From positions 1 to 64,000 of the forward strand of contig NZ_JACXZS010000013.1 in NCBI RefSeq assembly GCF_014779795.1: a DNA stretch of 64,000 bases. The letters run 5' to 3'. Source of the DNA: Microbacterium helvum. Its GTDB lineage: Bacteria; Actinomycetota; Actinomycetes; Actinomycetales; Microbacteriaceae. A program made the position numbers and the translations under genes. The notes under the pieces were generated by a model. That model was not told where the DNA came from and made no database searches. It saw nothing but the letters and a program-made list of their open reading frames with translations. Positions 682 through 13,859 of this stretch are shown in pieces. Every line of letters starts with the position of its first letter. The stretch's first letter is position 1.

Positions 682-3405
682 ATGGCGAGACTCAACCTCA
701 AGGCCGTCGAGGAGCGCGTCGCACCATTGGCTGGCCGCGAGAGCTACGACCGCGAGTTCATCTTCGACCTGCTGCTCGCGTACGGCAAGCCGCAAAGCAG
801 CGTCACACGGCTACGCAACGGAGACCTGAACGTCGCCGCCAACCCCGCGACGGAGGTCGCACAGAAGAAGGTCGTCTACTTCAAGGAGACGACCGCTGAC
901 CCGCTCGCCGTGCTCGAGGAGTCAAAAACCTCTCCCGATGTGGTGCGCTTCAGCACGCGCTTCGTCATCGTCACCGACTACGACGAGCTCGTCGCGCACG
1001 ACACCCAGACCGGCGAGACGATCGGCTTCCCGATCCGCGAGATCAACCAGCACTTCACGTTCTTCCTGCCATGGGCCGGCATGGAGAAGGCCCAGTACGT
1101 CGCCGAGGCGCACGCCGACGTCAAAGCCGCCGAGCGTATGGGCAAGTTGTTTGACGAGCTGCTCCACGCCAACCCGGGCCTGTTGGAGGAGCCGCACGGC
1201 CGACACGCGCTGAACCTCTTCTTCACGCGTCTGCTGTTCTGCTTTTTCGCCGAGGACACCGAGATCTTCGCGCAGAACCAGTTTACGAATGCCGTTGGAT
1301 CGCACACATTGGCCGATGGCTCAGACACCGCCGAGTTCCTCACCGATCTGTTCTTGGCGCTCGACACTGAGAGTCCTGCAGGCAAGCCGAGCCACGTTGC
1401 GGCATTCCCCTACGTCAACGGGCGGCTCTTCCGAGCGGACAACCGGTTCGTTGTGCCTCAGTTCACGAAGGTGGCCCGCGACGAACTGATCAACGCTGGC
1501 AAGCTCATCTGGCGTGAGATCAATCCCGACATCTTCGGCTCGATGTTCCAGGCGATCGTCACGCCCGGCAAGCGCAGCGACCTCGGCCAGCATTACACCT
1601 CGGTGCCGAACATCCTGAAGACGATCGAGCCACTGTTCCTCGATGCGCTCAAGGACGAGCTGGATGCCGGCCATGACTCGATGAAGAAGCTCGAAGCCCT
1701 CCTCGAGCGCATCAGCGCGATCAAGGTCTTCGACCCGGCATGTGGCTCGGGAAACTTCCTCGTCATCGCGTACAAGGAGCTGCGCCGACTGGAGCATGCG
1801 ATTCTGGAGCGCCTCGCCGCGCTGAACGAGAAGCACCGCGTACTGTTCGCGGAATCGAAGATCAACATCGAGAACTTCTTCGGCATTGAGATCGACGACT
1901 TCGCCGTCGAGGTCGCGATCCTGTCGCTGTGGATCGCCAAGCACCAGATGAACTCTGAGTTCAAGGACAAGTTCGGCGTCTCGATCCCACTGATCCCGCT
2001 GAAGGAGACCGGACAGATCAAGCACGGCAACGCGACCCGCGTTGACTGGAACGAGGTCTGCCCGAACGACGGCGGCGAGATCTACCTCATCAGCAACCCG
2101 CCGTACGTCGGATCGAGTATGCAGACAAAGGAGCAGAAGGCCGAGTTTAGGTCGGTCTTCGGCGCGAGGCCCTTCTCCGCGAACCTCGACTACATTTCGC
2201 TCTGGTTCGTCAAGGGGTCTGATTACATTCGGGGGTCACGGGCACGACTCGCCTTCGTGACGACGAACTCAGTCTCGCAAGGTGACCACGTGGGTTTGAT
2301 GTTCCCGACAGTGCTGTCCGGTGGTATCGAGATCGGGTTCGCGTACACCTCTTTCAAATGGGAGAACAACGCAAAGCGCAACGCGGGCGTGACGGTCGCT
2401 GTGATAGGCCTTCGGAATGCCTCGACGACGGAGAAGTACATCTACACCGACGGTCTACAGATCGCGGCTACAAGCATCAACGGATATCTGGCTGACGGAC
2501 CAAGCGTTTACCTCGGACGCCGCTCTGCTCCTCTCGCCGCTGGGTTCCCGAGAATGGTGCGCGGATCCCAGCCGTCCGATGGCGGCCATCTCATCATGGA
2601 TGCGGCAGGGCGGGCAGAGCTGCTTTCGACCGCATCTGAAGCGGTCCAGTTTGTGAAGCTGTACATGGGATCGTCGGAGTTCATCAACGATGCGGAACGA
2701 TACTGCCTTTGGGTGGAGCCCCGCGAGGCCAACCATGCAATGTCGATCCAGGGGATGCTGCCGCGACTGAACCGAGTAGCCGAGTTTCGCAGCAGTCCGG
2801 ACCGAAACGACGAGACAACGAAGGAGCTCGCCGCCAAGCCCTGGCAGTTCAAGCAGCCGGCGTACAAGCCGACAGACTCGATCATCGTTCCTCGGGTGTC
2901 ATCCGTACGGCGACCGTACATGCCCATGGGCTTTCTCGGGCCGGACACCGTGATCTCGGATGCAGCTTTTGCTGTGTACGACGCAGAACCGTGGGCATTC
3001 GCCGTGCTGACCTCCTCGATGCACATGGTCTGGACCAGAGCTATCGGTGGCCGAATGAAGACCGACTACCGCTACTCGAACACAATTGTCTACAACAACT
3101 TCCCGGTGCCGCCGCTCTCGGACGCAGTGAAGGAGAAGCTCACGGTCGCGGCGCTGCGCGTGCTGGATGTGCGCGAGTACCACTGCGACCATACGCTCGC
3201 CGAGCTCTACGATCCGGACAAGATGCCCGACGATCTGCGCGCGGCGCACGCCGAGGTCGACGCACTGGTCGACTCGATCTACTCCAAAAAGCCGTACGAG
3301 ACCGACGAGCAGCGGCTCTCCGATCTGTTCGCGATGTACGAGCGCATGACCGCCGCAGAGGCCGTCAAGACGCCGGTGAAGAAGACCAGAGGAAGCCGGA
3401 AGTGA
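682..3405 (+). CDS. MmeI/YeeA-like N6-adenine DNA methyltransferase, first gene of a three-gene defence operon
   Basis: A 907-residue class I SAM-dependent DNA methyltransferase. Motif I FDPACGSGNF is near residue 350 and the N6-adenine catalytic motif NPPY near 472. The N-terminal region (RFVIVTDYDELVAHD) matches the front of MmeI-type type IIG enzymes, and the C-terminal third should hold the target-recognition domain. I see no clear PD-(D/E)XK nuclease motif in the N-terminus, so this protein probably only modifies and recognises DNA. The start ATG at 682 was chosen because the homology begins there; the frame is open further upstream but without similarity. The last bases overlap the helicase start (GTGA). 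It is probably the modification and specificity part of a restriction-like system. Confidence 0.85.
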   Translation: MARLNLKAVEERVAPLAGRESYDREFIFDLLLAYGKPQSSVTRLRNGDLNVAANPATEVAQKKVVYFKETTADPLAVLEESKTSPDVVRFSTRFVIVTDYDELVAHDTQTGETIGFPIREINQHFTFFLPWAGMEKAQYVAEAHADVKAAERMGKLFDELLHANPGLLEEPHGRHALNLFFTRLLFCFFAEDTEIFAQNQFTNAVGSHTLADGSDTAEFLTDLFLALDTESPAGKPSHVAAFPYVNGRLFRADNRFVVPQFTKVARDELINAGKLIWREINPDIFGSMFQAIVTPGKRSDLGQHYTSVPNILKTIEPLFLDALKDELDAGHDSMKKLEALLERISAIKVFDPACGSGNFLVIAYKELRRLEHAILERLAALNEKHRVLFAESKINIENFFGIEIDDFAVEVAILSLWIAKHQMNSEFKDKFGVSIPLIPLKETGQIKHGNATRVDWNEVCPNDGGEIYLISNPPYVGSSMQTKEQKAEFRSVFGARPFSANLDYISLWFVKGSDYIRGSRARLAFVTTNSVSQGDHVGLMFPTVLSGGIEIGFAYTSFKWENNAKRNAGVTVAVIGLRNASTTEKYIYTDGLQIAATSINGYLADGPSVYLGRRSAPLAAGFPRMVRGSQPSDGGHLIMDAAGRAELLSTASEAVQFVKLYMGSSEFINDAERYCLWVEPREANHAMSIQGMLPRLNRVAEFRSSPDRNDETTKELAAKPWQFKQPAYKPTDSIIVPRVSSVRRPYMPMGFLGPDTVISDAAFAVYDAEPWAFAVLTSSMHMVWTRAIGGRMKTDYRYSNTIVYNNFPVPPLSDAVKEKLTVAALRVLDVREYHCDHTLAELYDPDKMPDDLRAAHAEVDALVDSIYSKKPYETDEQRLSDLFAMYERMTAAEAVKTPVKKTRGSRK

Positions 3406-5387
3406 ACGCGAGCAAGAAGCCCGTCAACATCGTCAACGTCACCTACGCGCAGACCAAGGCGTCGGTGAACACCGACAAGCTTGGCATGCGCGAGATGCAG
3501 CAGCGGGTGTTCGCGCAGCGTGACGCCCAGCACCTGCTGGTGAAGGCCCCGCCGGCTTCGGGCAAGTCGCGCGCGTTGATGTTCGTGGCGCTCGACAAGC
3601 TGTACAACCAGGACCGCAGGAAGGTCATCGTCGCGGTGCCTGAGCGCTCGATCGGCGCGTCGTTTGCTCCGACGGCGCTGACGAAGCATGGCTTCTGGGC
3701 CGACTGGGAGATCAAGGACGAGAACAACCTCTGCGACGCGGGGTCGTCGGCCGGAAAGGTCGACGCGTTCCTCAGGTTCCTCGAGGGCTCCGACGCGACG
3801 CTGGTCTGCACGCACGCGACGCTGCGGTTCGCGTTCGAGAAGCTGGCGCCTGACGCTTTCAACGGCACGGTGCTCGCGATCGACGAGTTCCACCACGTCT
3901 CCGCTGACACGGAGAGCTCGCGCCTGGGCGCGCTGCTGCGCGACGTGATGAACGGCTCCGACGCGCACATCGTCGCGATGACGGGCTCGTACTTCCGCGG
4001 CGACTCGGTGCCCGTGCTCTCGCCCGAAGATGAGGCGAAGTTCACGCCGGTCACGTTCAACTACTACGACCAGCTCAACGGGTACGAGCACCTGCGCTCA
4101 CTCGGTATCGGTCACCACTTTTATCAGGGCCGGTACACCGACGCGATCGGCGAGGTCCTCGACCTCGACAAGAAGACCATCGTGCATATCCCGAACGTCA
4201 ACTCCGGGGAGTCTACGAAGGACAAGCTGGAGGAGGTCGGCCATATCCTCGACACCATCGGCGAGGTCGTTAACGAGGACGAAGACACCGGCATCATCAG
4301 CGTGCGCCGGGGCGACACCGGCGAGATCGTGCGAGTCGCGGACCTCGTCGACGACACCGACCAGAAGAAGCGAGGCGACACTCTCCACTTCCTGGCGCAC
4401 ACGGCCTCGAAGGACCGCGACGCAGTGGACGTGATCATCGCCCTCGGGATGGCGAAGGAGGGCTTTGACTGGCCGTTCGCCGAACACGCGCTGACCGTCG
4501 GGTACCGAGCCTCACTCACCGAGGTCATCCAGATCATCGGGCGGGTGACGCGCGACAGCCCCGGCAAGGCGCACGCGCAGTTCACGAACCTCATCGCTGA
4601 GCCGGATGCCTCGCAGGGCGAGGTCAAGGTGTCGGTGAACAACATGCTCAAGGCGATCACCGCATCGCTGCTCATGGAGCAGGTGCTCGCGCAGAACTTC
4701 CAGTTCAAGACGAAGAAGTTCGACGGCGACGATGTGAAGAAGCCTGGAGAGCTAAAGGTCAAGGGCTTCAAGGAGCCCTCCACCGCGCGCGTGACGCAAA
4801 TCGTCGAGACAGACCTGAACGACCTAAAAGCGACGATCCTGCAGGACGACACCTTCGCGAAGGCCGCGGCCGGCTCGGTGGATGCTGAGACGACGAACAA
4901 GGTACTGATTCCGAAGATCATCCGTGAGAAGTACCCGGACCTCAGCGAAGCTGAGGTCGAGCAGGTGCGTCAGCAGGTGGTCGTCGATTCGGTGATCAAG
5001 ACCGGTGAGGTGCGCGAAGTCGGCGACAAGCGCTTCATCAAGCTCGCGGAGAAGTTCGTGAACATCGACGAGTTGAGCATCAACCTCATCGACTCGGTGA
5101 ACCCGTTCCAGCGCGCGTTCGAGGTCATGTCGAAGTCGGTCACGCCGTCGGTGCTGAGGATCATCCAGGACCAGATCGCGGCCACCCGGATCGAGTTCAC
5201 CGAGGCAGAGGCGCTGGCGCTGTTCCCGAAGATCCAAACCTGGGTGAAGGTCAACGGGCGCCGTCCCGACGTGCGCGCTGAGGACCCGAACGAGAAGCGT
5301 CTCGCGGCCGCCCTGCTGTTCCTGCAGAAGCTCAAGCAACAGCGCGAGGCCGAGAAGCGCGCAACAGAGACGGCGACCGAAGCGTGA
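3402..5387 (+). CDS. DEAD/DEAH-box SF2 helicase, second gene of the defence operon
   Basis: A 661-residue superfamily 2 helicase or translocase. Walker A is PPASGKS at residues 50-56, Walker B is DEFH near 161, a motif III-like TGS follows, and motif VI QIIGRVTR is near 377. The C-terminal third is charged and matches no domain I know. The GTG start overlaps the methyltransferase stop by four bases, and the stop overlaps the next GTG the same way, so the three genes are translationally coupled. By analogy with type I and type III restriction, it would translocate DNA for the nuclease. That role is inferred from the neighbours, while the helicase assignment itself is firm. Confidence 0.85.
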   Translation: MNASKKPVNIVNVTYAQTKASVNTDKLGMREMQQRVFAQRDAQHLLVKAPPASGKSRALMFVALDKLYNQDRRKVIVAVPERSIGASFAPTALTKHGFWADWEIKDENNLCDAGSSAGKVDAFLRFLEGSDATLVCTHATLRFAFEKLAPDAFNGTVLAIDEFHHVSADTESSRLGALLRDVMNGSDAHIVAMTGSYFRGDSVPVLSPEDEAKFTPVTFNYYDQLNGYEHLRSLGIGHHFYQGRYTDAIGEVLDLDKKTIVHIPNVNSGESTKDKLEEVGHILDTIGEVVNEDEDTGIISVRRGDTGEIVRVADLVDDTDQKKRGDTLHFLAHTASKDRDAVDVIIALGMAKEGFDWPFAEHALTVGYRASLTEVIQIIGRVTRDSPGKAHAQFTNLIAEPDASQGEVKVSVNNMLKAITASLLMEQVLAQNFQFKTKKFDGDDVKKPGELKVKGFKEPSTARVTQIVETDLNDLKATILQDDTFAKAAAGSVDAETTNKVLIPKIIREKYPDLSEAEVEQVRQQVVVDSVIKTGEVREVGDKRFIKLAEKFVNIDELSINLIDSVNPFQRAFEVMSKSVTPSVLRIIQDQIAATRIEFTEAEALALFPKIQTWVKVNGRRPDVRAEDPNEKRLAAALLFLQKLKQQREAEKRATETATEA

Positions 5388-6580
5388 GCACGAATGAGAA
5401 CATCGGGCCCGTCGACTTCGTCCTGACCGACTTCCAGGCGGTTCTCGACGCCGACGTTGACGGCCTGCTCGATGCGCCGGAGAAGCCCCGAAAGGTCACC
5501 TCGTCCGATCGCCTCGCGCGAGCATTCCTGGAGATCGTGGAGTTCTACCGGGCCCACGGCCGGGTGCCGAGCTCGATCACCCGCGAGATCGCCGAACGCA
5601 AGCTCGGTGCGAGACTCGACGGCTTCCTCGCCAGTGAGGAACGCGCGACCGCCGTCAAGCATCTCGACGAGTTCGGTCTGCTCGAAGCGCCGCAAGCACC
5701 GGCATCGATCGACGAACTCCTCGAGGGGGACGACCTTGACGACCTGCTGGGCGATGACGGCGGCATCCTCGACGTTTCGGACCTCCCAATCCGCCGGAGT
5801 TCTGACGCGCCCGACTCTGTGGCGAAGCGCACGAAAGCGCAGGACTTCGAGAGCTTCGAGCACCTGTTTCGCGCCAAGCACGCCGAACTGAAAGAGGGAA
5901 CGATCACGCTGGCACCCTTCAAAGGCGTGCACACCATTCAGGAGGGCCGGTTCTTCGCCCTCAACGGCATGCTGCTCTTCGTCGCCGAGGTCGGCGAATC
6001 GCTGTCAATGGTCGTCGGCGGCAAGGCCGAGCAGAAACAGCGACTCCGTGTGATCTTCGAGAACGGGACTGAGTCCTCGTTGTACCGGCAGTCGCTCTCG
6101 ATCCGGCTGCACGAGCAGGCAGGGCGGGCGCTCGTCCGAGCTGGAGCGTCAGCTGACGACATCCTCGACGGCGATGTCGAAACCGGACACATCTACGTTC
6201 TTCAGTCGCTCAGTACCGACCCTCTGGTTGCGAACATGAAGGATCTGCACAAGATCGGCTTCTCGACCACGAGCGTCGAGCAACGCATCAAGAACGCGGA
6301 GAAGTCGCCGACCTACCTCATGGCCCCCGTGAAGGTTGTGGCCGACTACCGGCTTTACAACGTGAAGGCGTCGTGGCTCGAGCATCTTCTGCACCGGGTT
6401 TTTGCGGAGGTACGGCTGGACCTCACCCAGGTCGATAAGAAGGGCCGGAACTACGACCCCTCGGAGTGGTTCGTCGTTCCCTATGATGTGATCAACCAAG
6501 CCGCGACGATGATCATGTCCGGCGAGATCACGAACTACGTCTACGACAGGGCGGAACGTCGACTGGTCGAACGGGATTGA
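5384..6580 (+). CDS. GIY-YIG nuclease family protein (T5orf172/MUG113 type), third gene of the defence operon
   Basis: 398 residues. The GIY-YIG module is at about 268-350: GHIYVLQSL gives the first strand, KIGFSTTSVEQRI corresponds to the YIG half with its arginine, and WLEHLLHRVF carries the expected catalytic glutamate. The N-terminal 150 residues are mostly charged, with a very acidic stretch (EGDDLDDLLGDDGG) and no recognised fold. The GTG start overlaps the helicase stop (GTGA). As the only obvious nuclease in the operon it is the likely cleavage subunit, which would fit a methyltransferase that lacks a nuclease domain. Whether it cuts DNA, and at which signal, cannot be read from the sequence. 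Confidence 0.8.
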   Translation: MSTNENIGPVDFVLTDFQAVLDADVDGLLDAPEKPRKVTSSDRLARAFLEIVEFYRAHGRVPSSITREIAERKLGARLDGFLASEERATAVKHLDEFGLLEAPQAPASIDELLEGDDLDDLLGDDGGILDVSDLPIRRSSDAPDSVAKRTKAQDFESFEHLFRAKHAELKEGTITLAPFKGVHTIQEGRFFALNGMLLFVAEVGESLSMVVGGKAEQKQRLRVIFENGTESSLYRQSLSIRLHEQAGRALVRAGASADDILDGDVETGHIYVLQSLSTDPLVANMKDLHKIGFSTTSVEQRIKNAEKSPTYLMAPVKVVADYRLYNVKASWLEHLLHRVFAEVRLDLTQVDKKGRNYDPSEWFVVPYDVINQAATMIMSGEITNYVYDRAERRLVERD

Positions 6581-6592
6581 TAATTTGTGGGC

Positions 6593-6606
6593 CGCGGCGC
6601 GCCGCG
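6593..6606. repeat. Perfect 14-bp palindrome between the two convergent defence operons
   Basis: CGCGGCGCGCCGCG reads the same on both strands. It sits in the 33-base gap between the stop of the GIY-YIG gene (6580) and the stop of the CBASS effector gene (6614, opposite strand). It could act as a short bidirectional terminator, though there is no T-run. Confidence 0.5.
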
Positions 6607-6613
6607 CAACTTC

Positions 6614-7345
6614 CTAACCGGTCGGCGATTGCAACGGCAAGTAGTACGCGTCCAGATCGATCGCCAACGCCGTGCCGAGGCGGGAGAGCGCGCGATACAG
6701 ACGTGTGGCGAACCAGATCAACTCCTGCCCGGGTGTCGCGTAGGTAAGCCCCTCCGTGCGGTCGAACGCGCCACCACGGACGGCGATGCCGAGATCGAGC
6801 GCCGTGGGCACGGTCTCTGTGATTGCGCCGACACCTGCGGCGCCGCGGATGTCGCTCCAGTCGAGGTCTGTGCTGAGAAAGACACCCAGAATCGGCTTGG
6901 TGTCCGGGTCCTGTGGCGGGTAGGTGCCGCCGGCGTGCCGGATTTCTGCTGAGGTTCGGTGAAGCCGCCGGACGCTCGCGACCTTGTCCCGAGCGTAATC
7001 GAGATTGTCCTTGTTCATGCGAGGTTTCACTTCGCACACGGCGTACACGCTTTCCGCGGGCACGAAGCTCACATTCCCCTGTTCGAAGAACAGAGGTGAG
7101 TACTGCCGATCGTAGATGCCGATATCGATCTGCCCGCTCTGCTGCCCGAGGGAGTCGATCGCGAAGATCGGCCCCACGCCGTACCGCTGAGGAAGGAACT
7201 CTCGGAGCACGCTGGTCCACTGCTCCTCGGTCGCGTCGCCCTTCGTCCCGGGATGATCGGTGAACTGGGGCATGAGTCCGAGCCCGGTGAGCATGTGATC
7301 CTGCTTAGCCGTGTAGGCCTTGGCGAGGTCGAACGGTTCAACCAT
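6614..7345 (-). CDS. DUF6602-like PD-(D/E)XK nuclease, probable CBASS effector
   Basis: 243 residues; last gene of the CBASS operon. The opening HPGTKGDATEEQW, then REFLPQRYGVG, GQIDIGIYD and VYAVCEVK, follows the DUF6602 pattern. The acidic residues E41, D74 and the E105-x-K107 pair have the spacing of a PD-(D/E)XK nuclease core. The second half (about 130-243) shows no SAVED domain, membrane segment or other known cyclic-nucleotide sensor. The ATG at 7345 overlaps the end of the JAB gene by eight bases, so the two are coupled. In type II CBASS the gene besides the cyclase, Cap2 and Cap3 is normally the effector, so I infer nucleotide-activated DNA cleavage. I cannot say how it would sense the signal. 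Confidence 0.65.
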   Translation of the reverse strand: MVEPFDLAKAYTAKQDHMLTGLGLMPQFTDHPGTKGDATEEQWTSVLREFLPQRYGVGPIFAIDSLGQQSGQIDIGIYDRQYSPLFFEQGNVSFVPAESVYAVCEVKPRMNKDNLDYARDKVASVRRLHRTSAEIRHAGGTYPPQDPDTKPILGVFLSTDLDWSDIRGAAGVGAITETVPTALDLGIAVRGGAFDRTEGLTYATPGQELIWFATRLYRALSRLGTALAIDLDAYYLPLQSPTG

Positions 7346-7823
7346 GTGTGTGCTCGTTCTCTGTCGACGGGACGGGCAGATCGCCCGTGGGGATGATGGC
7401 ACACGTCCGCAGCCGGACACCGCGCGCGAGGTGCAGGTCGATCGCGTACTGGTCCTCGACGCGTCGTGCGATCAGCAGCAAGGTCGGCTGCATCGTGCGG
7501 ACCGCTGTCGTAACGGTGGTCAGCCTGTCAGTCGCGCTGGCGGGGACATCCATCGGGTGAGAGTGCCAATCCCCGAGATACCCCACCCGCGGATCCAGAT
7601 CGCGCAGCCGGCGCACCGCTCGTCGCGTCACGCCGGCGGGGAGGCGATACGCGGTATGCCCTCGTTCGACGGTGGCAAATTCGACGGCGTGGGTGACCCA
7701 CGGGTACCGGCTGGTGTGGACCCCGACGAGGATCCCTCCGGTCTCCAACGGATGGGACAAGGTCGCCGCCGCGCGGATCGTGTCGAGGGCCGACTCAGAG
7801 ACATGCACCGTCGTGCTACGCAT
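7338..7823 (-). CDS. cap3: JAB/JAMM metalloprotease, CBASS Cap3
   Basis: 161 residues. The JAMM zinc site is visible: E27 (LETGG), H87-S-H89-P, S96 and D99. In type II CBASS, Cap3 is a deubiquitinase-like peptidase that removes the cyclase from the targets to which Cap2 attached it. The spacing between HSHP and S-x-x-D is one residue shorter than the commonest JAMM consensus. Two starts are possible, 7823 (MRSTT) or 7835 (MSGQM). Both overlap the end of the Cap2 gene, and I use the shorter. The C-terminal 50 residues extend beyond the JAB core. It is the third of four coupled genes. Confidence 0.85.
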   Translation of the reverse strand: MRSTTVHVSESALDTIRAAATLSHPLETGGILVGVHTSRYPWVTHAVEFATVERGHTAYRLPAGVTRRAVRRLRDLDPRVGYLGDWHSHPMDVPASATDRLTTVTTAVRTMQPTLLLIARRVEDQYAIDLHLARGVRLRTCAIIPTGDLPVPSTENEHTHG

Positions 7824-9387
7824 TTGCCCGCTCATGATCCCACTCCTCTGCCGCCGGAAACACGAAGCTGCCTCGCGTATCGAACGGTGCGGCATCAATC
7901 GGATGGAGAACGGTGACGACGTCCTGCGCGCCGGTGTCGCGACCCGTGAGGAGTTCCACCGCCAGGAGCGCTGCGTCGGCGGCCGCTCGGAGGACGGCAG
8001 TCGGCGGCGCGTTATGTACCGGGGCGGTGCAGCCGAGCTCCAGGAATCCCTCCGTCTCCTCGTCGTCACCAGCAGGGATCGCCGGGAACGCCGGGCTCGT
8101 GCGCTGGAGAATCGGCACGTCCCCGTGGGTTTGCCGCTGGATGCGAAACAGGCGGCCGCCACGATGCAACGACACCGAGACAAGCGGAACGTTCTCCAGC
8201 TCGCATGCGCGGGCGAGCGCGAGAGTTGCAGCGAACATGCCCGTGCAATCGACCACAAGGTCGAACCCTCGAATGATGATCGCAACCTGTTCCGGGGCCA
8301 ACGGAAGCGCTGCTCCCTCCACCGTCCGACACCACGGTGCAGGACCCGCGATCCTCACGCTCATTCCCACGGTCTTCGAGTAGCCGACGAGGTAGTCATC
8401 GAGGACATGCCGGGCAAGGTTCACCGATCGGAGATCATCGTCATCACGAAGGTGAAGCTCACCGACACCGCTACACGCCAGCGACAGCGCGACCTGACCG
8501 CCCACCGCTCCCACACCGGCCACGAGTACACGCTTGTCTTGCAGAATGCTGGCGTCAGGCCCAGCGCGACGAATGCGGCTAGCCACATCACTCGGAGAGG
8601 TCGAGTGCGGAGACGCACCCAGCTCCGCTCCGGCGCCAGCGAAGGAGAGCACCAGCGCCTCGAACTGCCCGTACTTCGGCCAAGCGAGAACCGCGAAGTC
8701 ATATCCACCGCTCGCCTCTCCTTGAGCCGCGCCGTCGCGCCGCCCAAGACCGTGATTGAGATTGTCCCGCTGCCGACGCGTAAGAGCGGCGCGGAATTCG
8801 TCGAGCGACCGGGGGGCCACCCGGACACTGTCGCGGTACATCACCACACCCTCCAGCGGGTGATCGTCGCGTGCGTTCTTCGTGAGAGTAAGGGTCGCTT
8901 TGGACTTCCCGTGGACGACATGGATGTCACCGTTGCGAGGCGCCCCTAGAAGTGCCGGCAAGTCGAGCTCGGCGCGCACAGCGGCGATCCCGGGGAACAG
9001 GACCCACGAGTCAAGCGCACGGTCCTCGAGTTCGAACCCGTCCCGCGCACTGGCGGCCCAACGATCCAGACGCGCGGAGAACGCGGCCCACGTCTGCCCG
9101 TGGATCTGCGCCGGATCGTCGTCGGCCCACAGGCAGATGTATCCCGATTTCGGCAGCACGTGATCAGCGATCAATCCCGGGACGAACGCCTTGGCTGCCA
9201 CTGCCGGCCACCCGTCGGTGATCGCGATCTCCATCACACGCGCGTCAGTGAGCGGCTCGAGCGACTCAGGAATCGCTCCCGTCCAGTGGCACCCATCCGA
9301 GCCGACCGTGGGGCTGAATCCTGCGCGGACCAACTCCGCACAAAACGCCTCAAACGCCGCCTGGTCGTACACGAAGGACCCCGACAC
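7816..9387 (-). CDS. cap2: Fused E2-E1 ubiquitin-like transfer enzyme, CBASS Cap2
   Basis: 523 residues. The N-terminal half is E2-like, with a candidate catalytic Cys85 in SGYICLWADDD. The C-terminal half is an E1/ThiF adenylation domain with the nucleotide loop GVGAVGG at 291-297, the RDDDDL strand and N/R contacts near 322-326, and a candidate E1 cysteine 453 in LGCTAPVHNAPP. In type II CBASS, Cap2 adenylates the C-terminus of the CD-NTase and conjugates it to cellular targets, priming cyclic-nucleotide synthesis. The gene starts 7 bases after the CD-NTase stop and overlaps Cap3. Domain order and both cysteines are intact, so it should be active. Confidence 0.88.
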   Translation of the reverse strand: MSGSFVYDQAAFEAFCAELVRAGFSPTVGSDGCHWTGAIPESLEPLTDARVMEIAITDGWPAVAAKAFVPGLIADHVLPKSGYICLWADDDPAQIHGQTWAAFSARLDRWAASARDGFELEDRALDSWVLFPGIAAVRAELDLPALLGAPRNGDIHVVHGKSKATLTLTKNARDDHPLEGVVMYRDSVRVAPRSLDEFRAALTRRQRDNLNHGLGRRDGAAQGEASGGYDFAVLAWPKYGQFEALVLSFAGAGAELGASPHSTSPSDVASRIRRAGPDASILQDKRVLVAGVGAVGGQVALSLACSGVGELHLRDDDDLRSVNLARHVLDDYLVGYSKTVGMSVRIAGPAPWCRTVEGAALPLAPEQVAIIIRGFDLVVDCTGMFAATLALARACELENVPLVSVSLHRGGRLFRIQRQTHGDVPILQRTSPAFPAIPAGDDEETEGFLELGCTAPVHNAPPTAVLRAAADAALLAVELLTGRDTGAQDVVTVLHPIDAAPFDTRGSFVFPAAEEWDHERANA

Positions 9388-9394
9388 GACGCAG

Positions 9395-10447
9395 TCACCC
9401 GTGCGATCGAGCGAAGCCCCGTGCCCGCGCCGGCCCCGTCGCGCTCACCGCCGCAACGCCAAGGATCGGCCTCCCGTCCGCTCCGCAACCGGGCGGAAGG
9501 GGAAGCACCTGGCCGCGGTCATTCGAACCAAGGATCTCTCGCCAGATCGCGGCCGCGGCGCACGCATCTGCACGGAGCGCTTGCTCGGCCCGGGACGCCA
9601 GTAGAACGAATCGCTTCGAAGCGATATGCCACTGAGCCTCGGATAGTGCGGGACGAAGCGGCGTCCCCAGGATGGGGTCGGACAACTCCGCCGTTGCCGC
9701 CCGTTCGAACTCGGTGGCGACTTCGCGGAGCGAGCCGGCAAGCAATTCGGCCCACGAACCGCCGACCACGCGACCAGCTTTCCACGCGTAGTACGCGGCG
9801 ATCTCGACATACAAGCCGCCCGGCTTTGCTTCAGCCAGGTGTGTGTGGCGCACCTGCCGCAACAGTCGCACCACCGGCTTGTACGCATTCCGAGTTCCAA
9901 CCGTCGGACTCGATGCACTCGTCGAAAGCGCATCCGTCTCCGCGGCGAACAGCACTGGACTCGTCTTGATCCATCGCGTCGACGGCTCCGACCAGGAATC
10001 GCGGTCCCGAGTCGGGATCCCCCAATGCTCCCCCCACGGGACGGCGGGAACAGCATCAACGCTGAACGCCAAGTCAGCCTGCGACCCCGGCGCCGCGAAG
10101 TCGATCTTCACGCTCCGCGCTTGCAGGGTCACCCGGCCACCCTGCCCAACTAGCCCGTAGTGAGCAATCAAGACCTTCGCAACCCGGTCGTAGATCGTCG
10201 TTGGATTGGACGACGTCGACAGTGCCTTGAAACGAAGAAAGACATCGACATCTTTCCCCGGGTAGCGACCGGTCTCACGCGCATACGACCCGATCAGGAT
10301 CGTGTCGATACCCCATTCCTTGAGACCGGAATCCGTCTCCAGCAGCTCTCTGACCTCAGTGTGAGCCGCAATGGCACGCTGTCGCTTCTCCCCGCTGATT
10401 GACACGTTCGATACGGCGCCTTCGAACTGATCCCCCAGGATCTCCAT
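9395..10447 (-). CDS. CD-NTase (cGAS/DncV-like nucleotidyltransferase), CBASS sensor
   Basis: 350 residues. The nucleotidyltransferase signature is complete: G53-S54-Y in LIGSYARETG, metal-binding D66 and D68 in KDVDVF, and a third acid D131 in FSVDAVPAVPW. It should make a cyclic or linear oligonucleotide on phage infection; the clade and product cannot be assigned by eye. In-frame ATGs exist at 10456 and 10447. I choose 10447 because GGGAGG lies nine bases before it but directly touches the other. The protein ends in glycine, fitting Cap2-type C-terminal conjugation. It is the first gene of the operon and its promoter must lie within 10448-10781. Confidence 0.88.
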   Translation of the reverse strand: MEILGDQFEGAVSNVSISGEKRQRAIAAHTEVRELLETDSGLKEWGIDTILIGSYARETGRYPGKDVDVFLRFKALSTSSNPTTIYDRVAKVLIAHYGLVGQGGRVTLQARSVKIDFAAPGSQADLAFSVDAVPAVPWGEHWGIPTRDRDSWSEPSTRWIKTSPVLFAAETDALSTSASSPTVGTRNAYKPVVRLLRQVRHTHLAEAKPGGLYVEIAAYYAWKAGRVVGGSWAELLAGSLREVATEFERAATAELSDPILGTPLRPALSEAQWHIASKRFVLLASRAEQALRADACAAAAIWREILGSNDRGQVLPLPPGCGADGRPILGVAAVSATGPARARGFARSHG

Positions 10448-10781
10448 GGATCGCATCCTCCCAGTGCTCAAGCGGTCGACAGATTGGCGGTTGATTGACT
10501 GTCATCTGACCCAGCGTCAACCCCAGACAGTAGCGGCGACCCCAGACACCGGCGGTTGGCGACTGTCGAAACGAAAGTCCAGCTGGCACTCACCGCGCCC
10601 CACCGCATTCTCTGGAGCGTCCCGGAGGGCCAGCTAACCGGCCCTCCACCATCATCGCCGGGAACCCACAAGATGCCATTACGGCTTGGGACAGACGCGC
10701 GACCCAACGACTCGAAATGTCCATCTGGACACCGCGTGGACATTTCACCCGCGAAATGGACATCTCAGAAAAATCCCTACA
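10448..10781. other. Gap between CBASS and dnaB with a 10-bp inverted repeat
   Basis: No gene is apparent in these 334 bases. GAAATGTCCA (10714-10723) and TGGACATTTC (10737-10746) form a perfect 10-bp inverted repeat with a 13-base spacer, and a related AAATGGACAT follows at about 10754. This is the joint between the conserved replication locus and the defence island, and the CBASS promoter must also lie here. The repeat could be an operator, a recombination scar or an old element end. Nothing in the sequence decides which. Confidence 0.5.
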
Positions 10782-13367
10782 CTACCCGAAGTCGCCGGGT
10801 GCCATGTCGGTGAAGCGCGAGAAATGACCCTGGAACGCGACCGTGATGGTGTCGGTGGGGCCGTTGCGGTGCTTGGCGACGATGAGGTCGGCCTCGCCGG
10901 CACGCGGCGAGTCCTTCTCGTAGGCGGCCTCGCGGTGCAGCAGCACCACCATGTCGGCGTCCTGCTCGATCGAGCCCGACTCACGAAGGTCGGACAGCGC
11001 CGGCTTCTTGTCGGCGCGCTGCTCGGCACCACGGTTCAGCTGCGACAGCGCGATGACCGGAACGCCGAGCTCTTTCGCGAGCAGCTTCAGCGCGCGCGAG
11101 AACTCGGAGACCTCTTGCTGACGCGACTCGACGCGCTTTCCCGACGTCATCAGCTGCAGATAGTCGATCACGACGAGCTTGAGGCCGGCGCGCTGCTTGA
11201 GGCGGCGGCACTTGGCGCGGATCTCGACGAGCGTCATGTTCGGGCTGTCGTCGATGTAGAGCGGCGCGTCGTTGATGCGGCCTCGGGTAGCGGCGACCGT
11301 CGTCCAGTCGCGGGAGTCGAGCGTGCCCTTGCGCATCGACTGCAGCGGGATCGCACCCTCGGCGCTCAGCAGTCGCATGGCGATCTCGCTGCGCCCCATC
11401 TCGAGTGAGAAGAAGATCGTGGGCATGTCGTGCTTGACGGCCGCCGAACGCGCGAAGTCGAGTGCGAGCGTCGAGTTGTGCGTCGGGATCATCGACGTGC
11501 CCGCGAGGTACAGGTGGTCGTCGTTGTCGACCTGCACGCATCGGACGGGAACGCTTGCGATCGGGCGGATCGCCTTCACATAGCGAGTGCCCGTGCGCAG
11601 TGTGTTCGCGGGTCGCTCCTGCCGGTGAAGGTTACGCTTGCGCTCCAGCCAGAAGACGTCATCCGTCGTCGAGAAGTTCAGGATGTAACAGGTCGACGAC
11701 GCTTCGGTACGCCCGTTCACACGCTTCGTCGTCCGGCCGCACCGGTAGCCGAGGCTGACGATCAGCTCGTACACCGAATCGGCGAGCTTCTTGCTCGTGA
11801 CGGCGAACTGGCACGAACCGACGCCCCTGACGACGGTGCCGTCGGTGTCGAGCAGCCCTGCGAGCAGTTCACGCCGCTGCGCCTCGGATGCACGCAGGTA
11901 CGCCGCCGGCACATGCTTGTCACCGAGCACTCCGGCCTTGCGCAACAGGGCAGTGAACGACCCGTGGTCGCGATAGCACGCAGCGCACTGCTGCGCCTCG
12001 CCCGAGAACGGCTCGCCGCAGTCGGGGCACGACAGCCGTTCGGGATGCGCGCCCTTGTTCTTCGGACCGCACGTACGACCGCACGTGCGCACGTGCGGGT
12101 GGCGCGCGAAGAACTCGACGCCGCACACCTCGCAGTTGCGGACGAGGGCTTCTCGTTCGAGGAGCTGGAGCGAATACAGCATCCCGCCGCGCGACTCCAC
12201 CCGCAGACCGCCGCTGCGCGCGACGAGCGACGGGATCTCGTCCGTCTCGCTCGTCATCCGCGCGCCGTCGCTGTGGCCATCGCCCAGCCAGGCACCCAGT
12301 GCGTAGGGAGCAACAGGAAGATCGGCCTCGGGCGCCTGCAGCGCGTGAGCGTTGCGCACGGAGTGGTTGGCACGTCCGTCGGCCGCCACGGTCAGCGTGG
12401 CCAGCATCTGCTCTGTCGTGATCACAGCCGGACCGCGACCGCCGCGCCTGGCCGACCGGGTCTCGGTGACCCACTGGTGCTCGGCGTCGGCGATGATCGT
12501 CGAGCCATCCGAGAACTCGACCTCGTAGCAGGGGCGACCCTCCATGATCTCGGTCGCGGCGACCACCTTCGTCGGTCGCCCGCCGGCGTCGTACAGCTCG
12601 TCGCCGACCTTGACCTCGCCCATCGTGGTCCACCCCGTCGGCGTGGCCAGCGGAGTGTCGAGGGCGAGCGCCTTACCCATCGCCGGTCGCGCCGCGATGA
12701 TGATCATCTGGCCGGGGTGCAGGCCGTTGGTGAGCTGGTCGAGACCCGAGAAGCCGGTGGGGATGCCGGTCATCTGACCGTCCCGGCCGCGGGCGGCCTC
12801 GATCTCTTCGACGGCGGCATCCACGGCGATCGTCAAGGGGACGTAGTCCTCGGCCTGCTCGGCACCGGTGACGGAGTAGATCTCGGCCTGCGCGTTGTTG
12901 ACGAGGTCGAGGGCCTCGCCTTGGCCCGAGTACCCCATCTGCACGATGCGCGTGCCAGCCTCGACGAGCCGGCGCAGCAGCGCGCGCTCCGACACGATCG
13001 ACGCGTAGTAACCGGCGTTGGCCGCGGTGGGGACGATCGAGGTCAGGGTGTGCAGGTAGTCCGCACCGCCGGCACGCTGCAGGTCGCCGGTCTTGATCAG
13101 CTCGTCGGTGACGGCGACGACGTCGGTCGGCTCGCCGTGCGAGTAGAGGGTGAGGATCGCCTCGAAGATGAGCTCGTGCTTCGGGATGTAGAAGTCGCTG
13201 CCCCGGAGCGTCTCGATGACGTCCGCCACGGCATCCTTCGAGAGCAGCATGCCGCCGAGCGCGCTCTGCTCGGCGAGGAGGTCGTGAGGGGGCGTTCGCT
13301 CGTAGTCGCTGCGGCCGTTGTCACGGGGCCCGCCCATGCGCTCTTCGGAGATGTCGGCGATCGACAT
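10782..13367 (-). CDS. dnaB: Replicative DNA helicase DnaB with an in-frame intein
   Basis: The precursor is 861 residues; removing the 399-residue intein leaves a 462-residue DnaB, the normal length. The N-terminal domain starts around HDLLAEQSALGGM. The RecA-type core has its P-loop split as ARPAMGK / STLALDF by the intein, then Walker B VVIDYLQLM, and LSQLNRGAEQR and DLRESGSIEQDAD in the second extein part. The start at 13367 is chosen for an AGGAGG ten bases upstream and because the sequence then matches other DnaB proteins. The hexameric helicase unwinds DNA at the fork. The helicase works only after splicing, since both halves of the ATP site come from different exteins. Confidence 0.95.
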   Translation of the reverse strand: MSIADISEERMGGPRDNGRSDYERTPPHDLLAEQSALGGMLLSKDAVADVIETLRGSDFYIPKHELIFEAILTLYSHGEPTDVVAVTDELIKTGDLQRAGGADYLHTLTSIVPTAANAGYYASIVSERALLRRLVEAGTRIVQMGYSGQGEALDLVNNAQAEIYSVTGAEQAEDYVPLTIAVDAAVEEIEAARGRDGQMTGIPTGFSGLDQLTNGLHPGQMIIIAARPAMGKALALDTPLATPTGWTTMGEVKVGDELYDAGGRPTKVVAATEIMEGRPCYEVEFSDGSTIIADAEHQWVTETRSARRGGRGPAVITTEQMLATLTVAADGRANHSVRNAHALQAPEADLPVAPYALGAWLGDGHSDGARMTSETDEIPSLVARSGGLRVESRGGMLYSLQLLEREALVRNCEVCGVEFFARHPHVRTCGRTCGPKNKGAHPERLSCPDCGEPFSGEAQQCAACYRDHGSFTALLRKAGVLGDKHVPAAYLRASEAQRRELLAGLLDTDGTVVRGVGSCQFAVTSKKLADSVYELIVSLGYRCGRTTKRVNGRTEASSTCYILNFSTTDDVFWLERKRNLHRQERPANTLRTGTRYVKAIRPIASVPVRCVQVDNDDHLYLAGTSMIPTHNSTLALDFARSAAVKHDMPTIFFSLEMGRSEIAMRLLSAEGAIPLQSMRKGTLDSRDWTTVAATRGRINDAPLYIDDSPNMTLVEIRAKCRRLKQRAGLKLVVIDYLQLMTSGKRVESRQQEVSEFSRALKLLAKELGVPVIALSQLNRGAEQRADKKPALSDLRESGSIEQDADMVVLLHREAAYEKDSPRAGEADLIVAKHRNGPTDTITVAFQGHFSRFTDMAPGDFG
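11475..12671 (-). other. Class 3-type intein in DnaB with a LAGLIDADG endonuclease and zinc-finger insert
   Basis: 399 residues from Ala1 to Asn399, inserted between Lys and Ser of the DnaB P-loop; the +1 residue is Ser. Residue 1 is Ala, not Cys or Ser. The class 3 triad is present: Trp67 in block B (EHQW), Cys378 at block F position 4 (VRCVQVD) and Thr397 in block G (PTHN). In this class the block F cysteine makes the first attack. A homing endonuclease of the LAGLIDADG type is inserted, with motifs LGAWLGDG (126-132) and LLAGLLDTDG (269-278). Between them lie Cys pairs (C180/C183, C197/C201, C215/C218, C229/C232) suggesting zinc fingers. All splicing residues look intact. Confidence 0.88.
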
Positions 13368-13859
13368 AGGGTCGGGGCCTCCTATCGTTCGCTCTTTCAA
13401 CGAAGACGCGCGCGATCCTGCGCCCCCGGGTAGCCGCAGACCACGCTAAGGACGGCCTCCGACACTCGCAACACGGCCTGTGGATAACTGTGTGGAAAGC
13501 CTGAGAGAAACGCCGACACACCTGTGAAGAACCTCTGTGGAGAACTCCTGGGGTTTCTGGGGGATATATCGCGGAAATCCCCTCTGATCAGGCATCCACG
13601 AATTCACACCCTGTGGAGGGATTCGTGGTTGAAGTCGAGGTTGAAGGTTGGGTGCGACGCTGTGGCCTGTGCACAATTCCGGGGACACCGCATCCGCTCG
13701 CGCCCCGCGGCTCCGCGAGGCCGTCGATTCGGAAGACGCCCTGGACACGGCGAGGAACGCTGCGCTACCCTCGGAGCACCAGGCACCCTCACGCACGATC
13801 CGTTCGGCCGTTCCACTGTCCGTTCTGGATGTGCGGCTTATTCGTCGTGGGAGGTGAAC
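13368..13859. other. Gap upstream of dnaB with DnaA-box-like sequences
   Basis: About 490 bases without a convincing gene. A perfect TTATCCACA (DnaA box, minus strand) lies at 13479-13487. Related TGTGGA or TGTGCACAA sequences occur close by, around 13490, 13534, 13611 and 13670. This could be a secondary DnaA-binding cluster upstream of dnaB or simply the dnaB control region. The dnaB ribosome binding site AGGAGG is at its left end. Confidence 0.4.

Follow-up and report, generated by a model that had tools for sequence, protein, structure and literature searches.

A likely ATP-dependent restriction-modification operon of the OspHL35III / DnmA-YeeB-YeeC kind in Microbacterium helvum

We analyzed a stretch of 64,000 nucleotides of the Microbacterium helvum genome (contig NZ_JACXZS010000013.1, hereafter the window) that hosts three adjacent genes on the forward strand, with the following features:

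682..3405, + strand: MmeI-like m6A DNA methyltransferase (DnmA/YeeA type), 907 aa, ATG start, TGA stop
2497..3117, + strand: target recognition domain (TRD), position from Pfam MmeI_TRD
3402..5387, + strand: SF2 helicase-like ATPase, probable translocase (YeeB type), 661 aa, GTG start, TGA stop
5384..6580, + strand: GIY-YIG (T5orf172/MUG113) protein (YeeC type), 398 aa, GTG start
6173..6577, + strand: GIY-YIG domain, with G268, Y271, K290, G292, R301, E333 and H337 (protein numbering)

The open reading frames bear out the original prediction of three genes with four-base overlaps, since both junctions, at 3402 and 5384, read GTGA. An AGGA lies 5' of the methyltransferase ATG at 682. A type II CBASS operon adjoins the three-gene operon.

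The same three genes were expected to co-occur in other genomes, and a search of gene neighbourhoods found that they do. Among 80 relatives fetched by the helicase, the nuclease gene was present in 79 and the methyltransferase gene in 71 (70 upstream and 1 downstream). In the nine loci without a methyltransferase, the contig extends no more than 2,406 bp upstream, and in the one without a nuclease it ends 2 bp downstream; the absent genes are thus those of loci at contig ends. The three-gene order recurs in 15 phylum-level groups, and the window proteins cover nearly the whole of their family profiles. Gene gaps, counted by hand in 70 loci, were at most 73 nt between methyltransferase and helicase in 45 loci and at most 53 nt between helicase and nuclease in 67. 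Such tight spacing over 15 phylum-level groups indicates that the gene order is not due to chance. In some relatives, toxin-like or regulatory genes sit in the gap between methyltransferase and helicase. Judged from sequence, motor and nuclease are separate genes, overlapping here, that are nearly always encoded together.

The Pfam domains MmeI_N, _hel, _Mtase, _TRD and _C matched the methyltransferase above cut-off, PADLOC identified it as PDLC03598 REase_MTase_IIG (E=5e-284), and its family profile matched the MmeI structure 5hr4 (E=2e-279). The protein carries the catalytic motifs DPACGSGNF and NPPY. Motif I is kept in 100 and motif IV in 101 of the 102 helicase-linked methyltransferases whose N-terminus was covered, near-duplicates included. 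The view of this protein as MmeI-like and devoid of a nuclease motif was confirmed, and a clear PD-(D/E)XK motif was looked for in its N-terminus and not found. Aligned jointly with MmeI, the window protein has gaps at D70 and K82 and a lysine at E80; in the profile alignment, the family consensus has a glutamate, a lysine and nothing at D70, E80 and K82, respectively. The strict D70/E80/K82 columns are matched by none of the 102 linked methyltransferases. By comparison, eight of nine unlinked MmeI relatives from the same phylum have D(9-10)ExK, five by aligned column and three more by reading; the nine are drawn from 11 found beside the window's genome, two genomes with weak MmeI_TRD (G384 and G575) being left out. 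We also considered a hidden nuclease in the methyltransferase and rejected it. A loose D(7-12)ExK occurs outside the aligned columns in 14 of the 102 linked proteins, the background being lower (67 in 2,052 windows), but none lies in the aligned columns and, among the loose matches listed, all eight are out of register. At the level of sequence, the methyltransferase holds the only recognised TRD of the operon and has no in-register nuclease motif.

Using the specificity code positions of PMC4833311, we read the code residues of the window protein as R642, Q645, D723, K737, Q738, R751, D773, A774, K806, D808 and R810 (MmeI numbering), which gives a predicted methyltransferase site of 5'-GNGRm6AG. 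Target recognition varies strongly in relation to the motor: compared to the nearest relative (L021), TRD-N is 48% identical and the helicase 95%, and 99 distinct recognition codes occur among 110. Residues 806 and 808 are charge-complementary in 102 of 110 code pairs (shuffled mean 51.4, maximum 67 in 5,000 shuffles), the remaining 8 lacking complementarity. We mapped the position-6 code on a quick tree of 110 helicase rows, 101 of them labelled, and counted 31 C/G changes, while the shuffled mean was 32.0 and 110 of 300 shuffles were as low. This code therefore changes as often as under shuffling, which argues for restriction.

In the helicase-like ATPase, the Pfam DEAD domain scored above cut-off, and ResIII and Helicase_C below theirs. 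The protein has the motifs PPASGKS, DEFHH, TGS and GRVTRD; among its homologues, DExH, TGS and GRxTRD are kept in 110 out of 110 and Walker A in 107. Structure comparison returned an SF2 fold for its model, which is itself of moderate confidence (pLDDT 73). The fold matches are not specific to DNA translocases: RNA sensors (RIG-I/MDA5) ranked first, and DEAD-box RNA helicases followed within about 1.5 Z. The duplex-DNA motors Hef, Mfd and FANCM came within about 1 Z of the top match, and Foldseek also matched LlaBIII. The protein is probably a translocase. The resemblance to RIG-I/MDA5 would also fit a BREX-like or signalling defence, in which methylation labels self and the motor and nuclease, instead of cutting phage duplex upon collision, block replication, introduce nicks or act on RNA or host DNA. 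The poor characterization of GIY-YIG/T5orf172 proteins and the toxin-like or regulatory genes in some gaps speak for the same reading. We consider it unlikely, given how close the duplex-DNA motors come to the best match and given that solo relatives have a PD-(D/E)XK cutter instead, which points to DNA cutting.

The GIY-YIG protein matched MUG113 and T5orf172 of Pfam above cut-off. Its AlphaFold2 model (pLDDT 87, pTM 0.45) is built of a helical N-domain, a central beta-barrel and a C-terminal GIY-YIG domain. The seven domain residues listed above, which include the active-site residues (GIY, KIG here in place of YIG, plus R and E), are invariant in 115 out of 115 homologues, after leaving out of the 118 aligned the three that do not reach the domain. 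A lysine replacing the YIG tyrosine is described for R.Hpy188I in the covered part of PMC2630997. A fold search of the PDB with the model yielded no hit with E <= 0.001, and there is no GIY-YIG structure among the matches listed. The list consists of barrel matches (EF-P/eIF5A, CarD and Tudor-like, Z up to 6.1), which are too weak for the central domain to be named from it. Viral predicted T5orf172/GIY-YIG models are among the structural matches, and PDB sequence searches with the helicase profile, the nuclease profile and the GIY-YIG domain returned nothing useful. The GIY-YIG assignment rests on Pfam, on the residues and on the viral models, and nuclease activity is predicted. By hhalign, the C-terminal part of the helicase shares a short motif with the N-terminal part of the nuclease (probability 92.8 over 33 columns, dropping to 53.9 when longer segments are used), which at most hints at a shared module.

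We rejected the variable central domain as a second specificity domain: over 98 loci, with overall divergence controlled, its divergence does not track that of TRD-N (r=0.003, a value reached in 233 of 500 permutations). The same result bears on a mode of action close to the site, in which cleavage by the GIY-YIG protein falls at a set distance from the methyltransferase-bound site and the helicase acts as a switch, as in CglI (R2H2). In CglI, recognition resides in the endonuclease, and the nuclease and methyltransferase families differ from those of the window operon. CglI resembles the operon in that a helicase-like ATPase and an endonuclease are separate subunits acting on an asymmetric site, with cleavage nearby (excerpts of PMC5737866). 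Unlike CglI, no second recognition domain is recognised in the window operon, and we regard site-proximal action as very improbable.

The original prediction that the functions of a type IIG enzyme are split between subunits and joined to a translocase is well supported by the loss of the cis nuclease, the GIY-YIG protein and SF2 motor in trans, and the near-strict co-occurrence of the genes. We consider it likely that the operon is an ATP-dependent restriction-modification system of the OspHL35III / DnmA-YeeB-YeeC kind, whose three proteins together probably destroy incoming unmarked phage DNA. The methyltransferase would mark one adenine in an asymmetric site, the predicted 5'-GNGRm6AG. At an unmarked site, it would recruit or activate the other two proteins: the SF2 motor, which would translocate along duplex DNA, and the GIY-YIG protein, which would cut where two complexes meet, most likely from inversely oriented unmarked sites. 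The two-site collision is proposed by analogy only. Because only one strand is marked, each daughter keeps the mark on one member of a pair of opposed sites, and a requirement for two such sites would thus protect host DNA that has just been replicated.

Vibrio crassostreae became more sensitive to some phage clades when dnmA and yeeB were deleted (a result cited in PMC9973331). No report of cleavage by OspHL35III or DnmA-YeeB-YeeC systems was found in the portions of the literature covered. For B. subtilis, the covered parts of PMC9973331 and PMC7261158 report that deleting the three genes left three phages unaffected, that phage genomes show no depletion of the DnmA motif and that plasmid uptake stayed the same after dnmA deletion, and the authors call the cluster a relic. 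These results favour a reading of the window operon as an orphan-methylase relic, where the methyltransferase regulates genes and the other two proteins no longer restrict. We give this reading little probability, because the nuclease residues are all kept and the motor motifs nearly all, the methyltransferase lies beside the other two genes in 71 of 80 loci with the others cut by contig ends, and specificity at position 6 is spread over the helicase tree as though at random, unlike a conserved regulatory mark. The mutual exclusion of cis and trans nucleases, together with specificity turnover, argues for DNA restriction by the family overall. A broader proposal, which we regard as possible rather than likely when taken whole, is that these operons form a distinct translocating restriction class. 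An asymmetric half-site recogniser that lost its cis nuclease would work with a duplex-DNA motor and a GIY-YIG cutter supplied in trans, and this would be the first long-range, ATP-driven restriction to use a GIY-YIG nuclease. The class would be active in most carriers, making the B. subtilis relic an exceptional case, and phages would counter it by carrying only the methyltransferase, even as a tandem version with two specificities. The kind is widespread and its best-studied example was declared inactive, while the window copy keeps the active-site residues looked for.

Several known systems share parts of this architecture. MmeI (Type IIL, PDB 5hr4) has the same methyltransferase-TRD architecture and specificity code positions but bears PD-(D/E)XK in its chain, whereas the window methyltransferase has no such nuclease in its chain and has partner genes instead. 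The Type ISP enzymes LlaGI and LlaBIII likewise combine a motor, a gamma-type methyltransferase and a TRD for an asymmetric site; they are single polypeptides with an Mrr nuclease (PMC3874165, in part), whereas the window has three open reading frames, a GIY-YIG protein and no Mrr domain in the Pfam scan. The operon may thus work like a dismantled Type ISP enzyme, with GIY-YIG replacing the Mrr nuclease. In the AchA6III type (Blow et al. 2016, PMC4752239, legend to S4 Fig B), an MmeI-like methyltransferase without nuclease motif has a partner motor, which is a fused PLD nuclease-translocase, unlike the separate motor and GIY-YIG protein of the window. One relative (L151) has an arrangement resembling that type. 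Similarity of the methyltransferase to DrmMI of DISARM (E=1e-36) is weaker than to REase_MTase_IIG (5e-284), and the helicase and GIY-YIG protein had no PADLOC match to Drm models at E<=0.01. Similarity to PglX of BREX covers the catalytic core only, far below NCBIfam cut-offs, and no BREX partners (BrxC/PglY, PglZ) occur among the seven proteins scanned (682-10471). Unlike in Type I systems, which combine HsdM and HsdR with a separate HsdS subunit bearing two TRDs, one MmeI_TRD lies inside the methyltransferase and no S subunit is among the three proteins. Morgan et al. in 2009 are said to have suggested a Type I-like system for DnmA-YeeB-YeeC. In B. subtilis, gene order and domains equal those of the window, and the DnmA mark is m6A in GACGAG (parts of PMC7261158 and PMC9973331). 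The B. subtilis control genome matches PDLC03598 and PF20466. B. subtilis YeeB and YeeC are reported, in the same excerpts, to be inactive and to be missing short stretches at their C-termini, whereas the window proteins are near full-profile and have another predicted site. The split-enzyme part of the original prediction thus stands, and its claim of an unrecognised layout does not: besides dnmA-yeeB-yeeC, Blow et al. 2016 described the three-protein OspHL35III type, with several hundred REBASE members (PMC4752239, S4 Fig C). That type comprises an MmeI-like methyltransferase without endonuclease motif and with a single TRD, a separate translocase and a separate GIY-YIG endonuclease, and comparison by text description and figure legend revealed no difference. 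With an MmeI-like methyltransferase-TRD protein free of a nuclease motif, an adjacent SF2 protein and an adjacent GIY-YIG protein, the window operon looks like a well-preserved further representative of this already described layout.

The three genes of the operon occupy the positions given for them in the original prediction, and consecutive genes overlap by GTGA at both junctions (ORF reading):
682-3405, + strand: methyltransferase gene
3402-5387, + strand: helicase gene
5384-6580, + strand: GIY-YIG protein gene
The contig starts at window base 1. The methyltransferase start is preceded by AGGA and aligns with that of a Paenarthrobacter homologue.

The first protein contains all five MmeI Pfam domains, and the profile of its family retrieves MmeI (5hr4) at 2e-279. 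Among its helicase-linked homologues, methyltransferase motifs I and IV are kept in 100/102 and 101/102 proteins, respectively. In a joint alignment with MmeI, none of the 102 linked methyltransferases with a covered N-terminus (near-duplicates counted in) retains D70/E80/K82. As a comparison set, we read nine unlinked MmeI relatives that other genomes in the same phylum encode, leaving out two weak genomes (G384 and G575); the several kb read on each side contain neither a helicase nor a nuclease of the family. Eight of the nine have D(9-10)ExK at the nuclease position, five by aligned column (L149, L150, L153, L154, L155) and three by reading (L152, L156, L157); the methyltransferase is split over two ORFs in L152 and L154. 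The ninth, L151, lacks the motif and adjoins a PLD-SNF2 protein and a GHKL ATPase (L151:4337-12543). It resembles AchA6III (Blow et al.), also an MmeI-like methyltransferase without nuclease motif, but has the ATPase in addition. Since the motif is present in eight of nine unlinked and none of 102 linked proteins, and L151 lies beside PLD-SNF2, the cutter is part of the same chain or else belongs to partners. PADLOC matches the window protein to its REase_MTase_IIG model PDLC03598 at 5e-284, and names this nuclease-less methyltransferase (682-3405) a Type IIG restriction enzyme-methyltransferase; annotation based on PDLC03598 may overcount single-chain IIG enzymes.

The second protein bears SF2 helicase motifs. 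DExH, TGS and GRxTRD are kept in 110/110 homologues, and PP[AG]SGKS in 107 (exceptions L114, L115 and L118). The nearest structures to its model (pLDDT 73) are RIG-I/MDA5 (best Z 15.8). Hef, Mfd, FANCM and DEAD-box RNA helicases follow at no more than about 1.5 Z below the best match, and 983 of 993 chains aligned reach Z ≥ 8; Foldseek matches include LlaBIII (Type ISP) and HsdR. As RNA and DNA helicases match with similar Z, the modeled fold identifies the protein as SF2, but not the nucleic acid on which it acts. The third protein has T5orf172/MUG113 at its C-terminus, and its model (pLDDT 87, pTM 0.45) predicts a small beta-barrel between a helical and a C-terminal domain. Viral T5orf172/GIY-YIG models match it; in the PDB fold search, matches to the barrel took up the list and no GIY-YIG structure appeared. 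G268, Y271, K290, G292, R301, E333 and H337 are invariant in 115/115 homologues (118 aligned, three truncated before these residues). We paired Y271, K290, R301 and E333, by our own matching, with Y63, K73, R84 and E149 of R.Hpy188I, for which passages of PMC2630997 propose roles and report a lysine at the YIG tyrosine. In four loci (L010, L142, L088, L093) the gene is divided into two ORFs past the helical N-domain (profile about 96-130 of 404), which suggests that this domain is separable.

The association of the three genes recurs widely. We searched genome contigs with a profile of the helicase alignment, which matched at least 590 stretches, of which at least 557 were confirmed. Among the best 80 of these confirmed loci, the helicase is present in all, the GIY-YIG gene in 79 and the methyltransferase in 71, upstream of the helicase in 70 and downstream in one (L040). 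Where the methyltransferase is missing (nine loci), the contig extends no more than 2,406 bp upstream; where the nuclease is missing (one locus), it extends 2 bp downstream. Counted by hand over the 70 loci, the methyltransferase and helicase genes lie no more than 73 nt apart in 45 loci and are separated by 0.47-4.4 kb in 24; the remaining locus (L075) has its methyltransferase split over two ORFs. Between helicase and nuclease, 67 of the 70 have a gap of at most 53 nt. Among the matches listed, those with named organisms span 15 phylum-level groups, including a Methanosarcinaceae MAG (L059). The same gene order is found in all 12 plasmid loci fetched from 263 records, with the methyltransferase in pieces in L012 and partial in L020, where other genes interrupt the locus. 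The system is sparse: among 296 genomes from the window's class, a full-length helicase match occurs only in the window's genome and in a single other, and two more have partial weak matches.

The wider gap hosts accessory genes. ORFs of at least 50 aa occur in 23 of the 24 wide-gap loci among the best 80 of at least 557 (exception L098). Seven of the ten slot ORFs scanned match Pfam: three Schlafen/AlbA_2 (two with HATPase_c_4), one RhuM, two Fic and one Abi_C; the loci with such genes include L047, L048, L056, L062 and L065. By BLAST, 10 slot ORFs from nine loci cluster with two Schlafen/AlbA_2 proteins. Plasmid slots hold toxin-antitoxin pairs or a DUF4433-macro pair (L015, L019), and the slot protein of plasmid locus L017 has no Pfam match.

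Downstream of the operon, on the opposite strand, PADLOC and Pfam matches delineate a Type II CBASS-like operon (6614-10471):
9395-10471, - strand: CD-NTase
7816-9387, - strand: Cap2-like E1-E2
7338-8285, - strand: Cap3-like JAB
6614-7420, - strand: NucC-like effector
At 10782-13400 (- strand), a LAGLIDADG/intein-like insert splits a DnaB replicative helicase (Pfam LAGLIDADG_3 over cut-off, Hom_end under cut-off).

Sequence divergence concentrates in target recognition. Compared to the Agromyces locus L021, nearest in the helicase tree (helicase identity 95%), the window shares 89% in MmeI_N, 88% in the spacer, 77% in the catalytic domain, 48% in TRD-N, 75% in TRD-C, 87% in the C-domain and 78% in the nuclease; across the 18 actinobacterial comparisons, TRD-N identity ranges from 34 to 49%. 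At MmeI position 6, E806-R808 specifies C and K-D specifies G, according to part of PMC4833311. Residues 806/808 are charge-complementary in 102/110 proteins (shuffled mean 51.4, maximum 67 in 5000). The resulting C/G label changes 31 times on a quick helicase tree with 101 labeled rows (shuffled mean 32.0, as low in 110/300 shuffles), and the 11-residue recognition codes take 99 distinct forms among 110 proteins. In the window, the code reads G (D723/K737), unassigned (R642/Q645), G (R751/D773), R (A774/R810), A, G (K806/D808). The published code therefore predicts 5'-GNGRm6AG for the window and roughly AAGRAC for L021.

The methyltransferase was found in 38 viral-contig loci, accompanied by the helicase in 26 and by both partners in 24. 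Of the 12 without the helicase, nine have no more than 1.34 kb of sequence downstream. In L133 and L134 the methyltransferase stands alone, with neither partner despite room downstream. L139 has a nuclease fragment only: its 1280-aa protein (L139:7848-12511) has two MmeI methyltransferase-TRD units without the N-terminal domain and is followed by a YeeC-like ORF that ends before the GIY-YIG domain, 18 bases short of the contig end. The protein is possibly a two-specificity anti-restriction methylase. Leptospira phage LE1 (NC_048892.1 40647-43100) has a methyltransferase homologue, and its records gave no helicase match. Phages with L133-, L134- or LE1-type enzymes presumably mark their own DNA.

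At the sequence level, the operon has overlapping genes for one recognizer without in-register cis nuclease and for a motor and a trans nuclease that both look intact. Methylase bound at unmarked sites would load the motor and the GIY-YIG protein, and complexes from opposed sites would collide and trigger cutting. The opposed-site requirement is borrowed, by analogy, from the argument for MmeI and Type ISP enzymes, which mark a single strand (passages of PMC3874165). Against restriction, parts of PMC9973331 report that in B. subtilis three phages were unaffected by the deletions and that phage genomes show no depletion of the motif, and a passage of PMC7261158 that deletion of dnmA left plasmid uptake unchanged in B. 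subtilis. However, PMC9973331 cites work in which deletions in V. crassostreae made the bacterium more sensitive to some phage clades. The window operon is a real, conserved and probably functional restriction system.

We found no biochemical demonstration of such a system in the open-access literature, which excludes most subscription papers. The window operon belongs to an already described kind, that of OspHL35III and DnmA-YeeB-YeeC. For OspHL35III, passages of Blow et al. 2016 (PMC4752239) describe an MmeI-like methyltransferase without endonuclease motif, with the translocase and the GIY-YIG endonuclease each separate, and several hundred such systems in REBASE (S4 Fig legend). Morgan et al. 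2009, as cited in PMC7261158, placed DnmA among motif-less MmeI homologues flanked by yeeB/yeeC-like genes and proposed a Type I-like system for this group.
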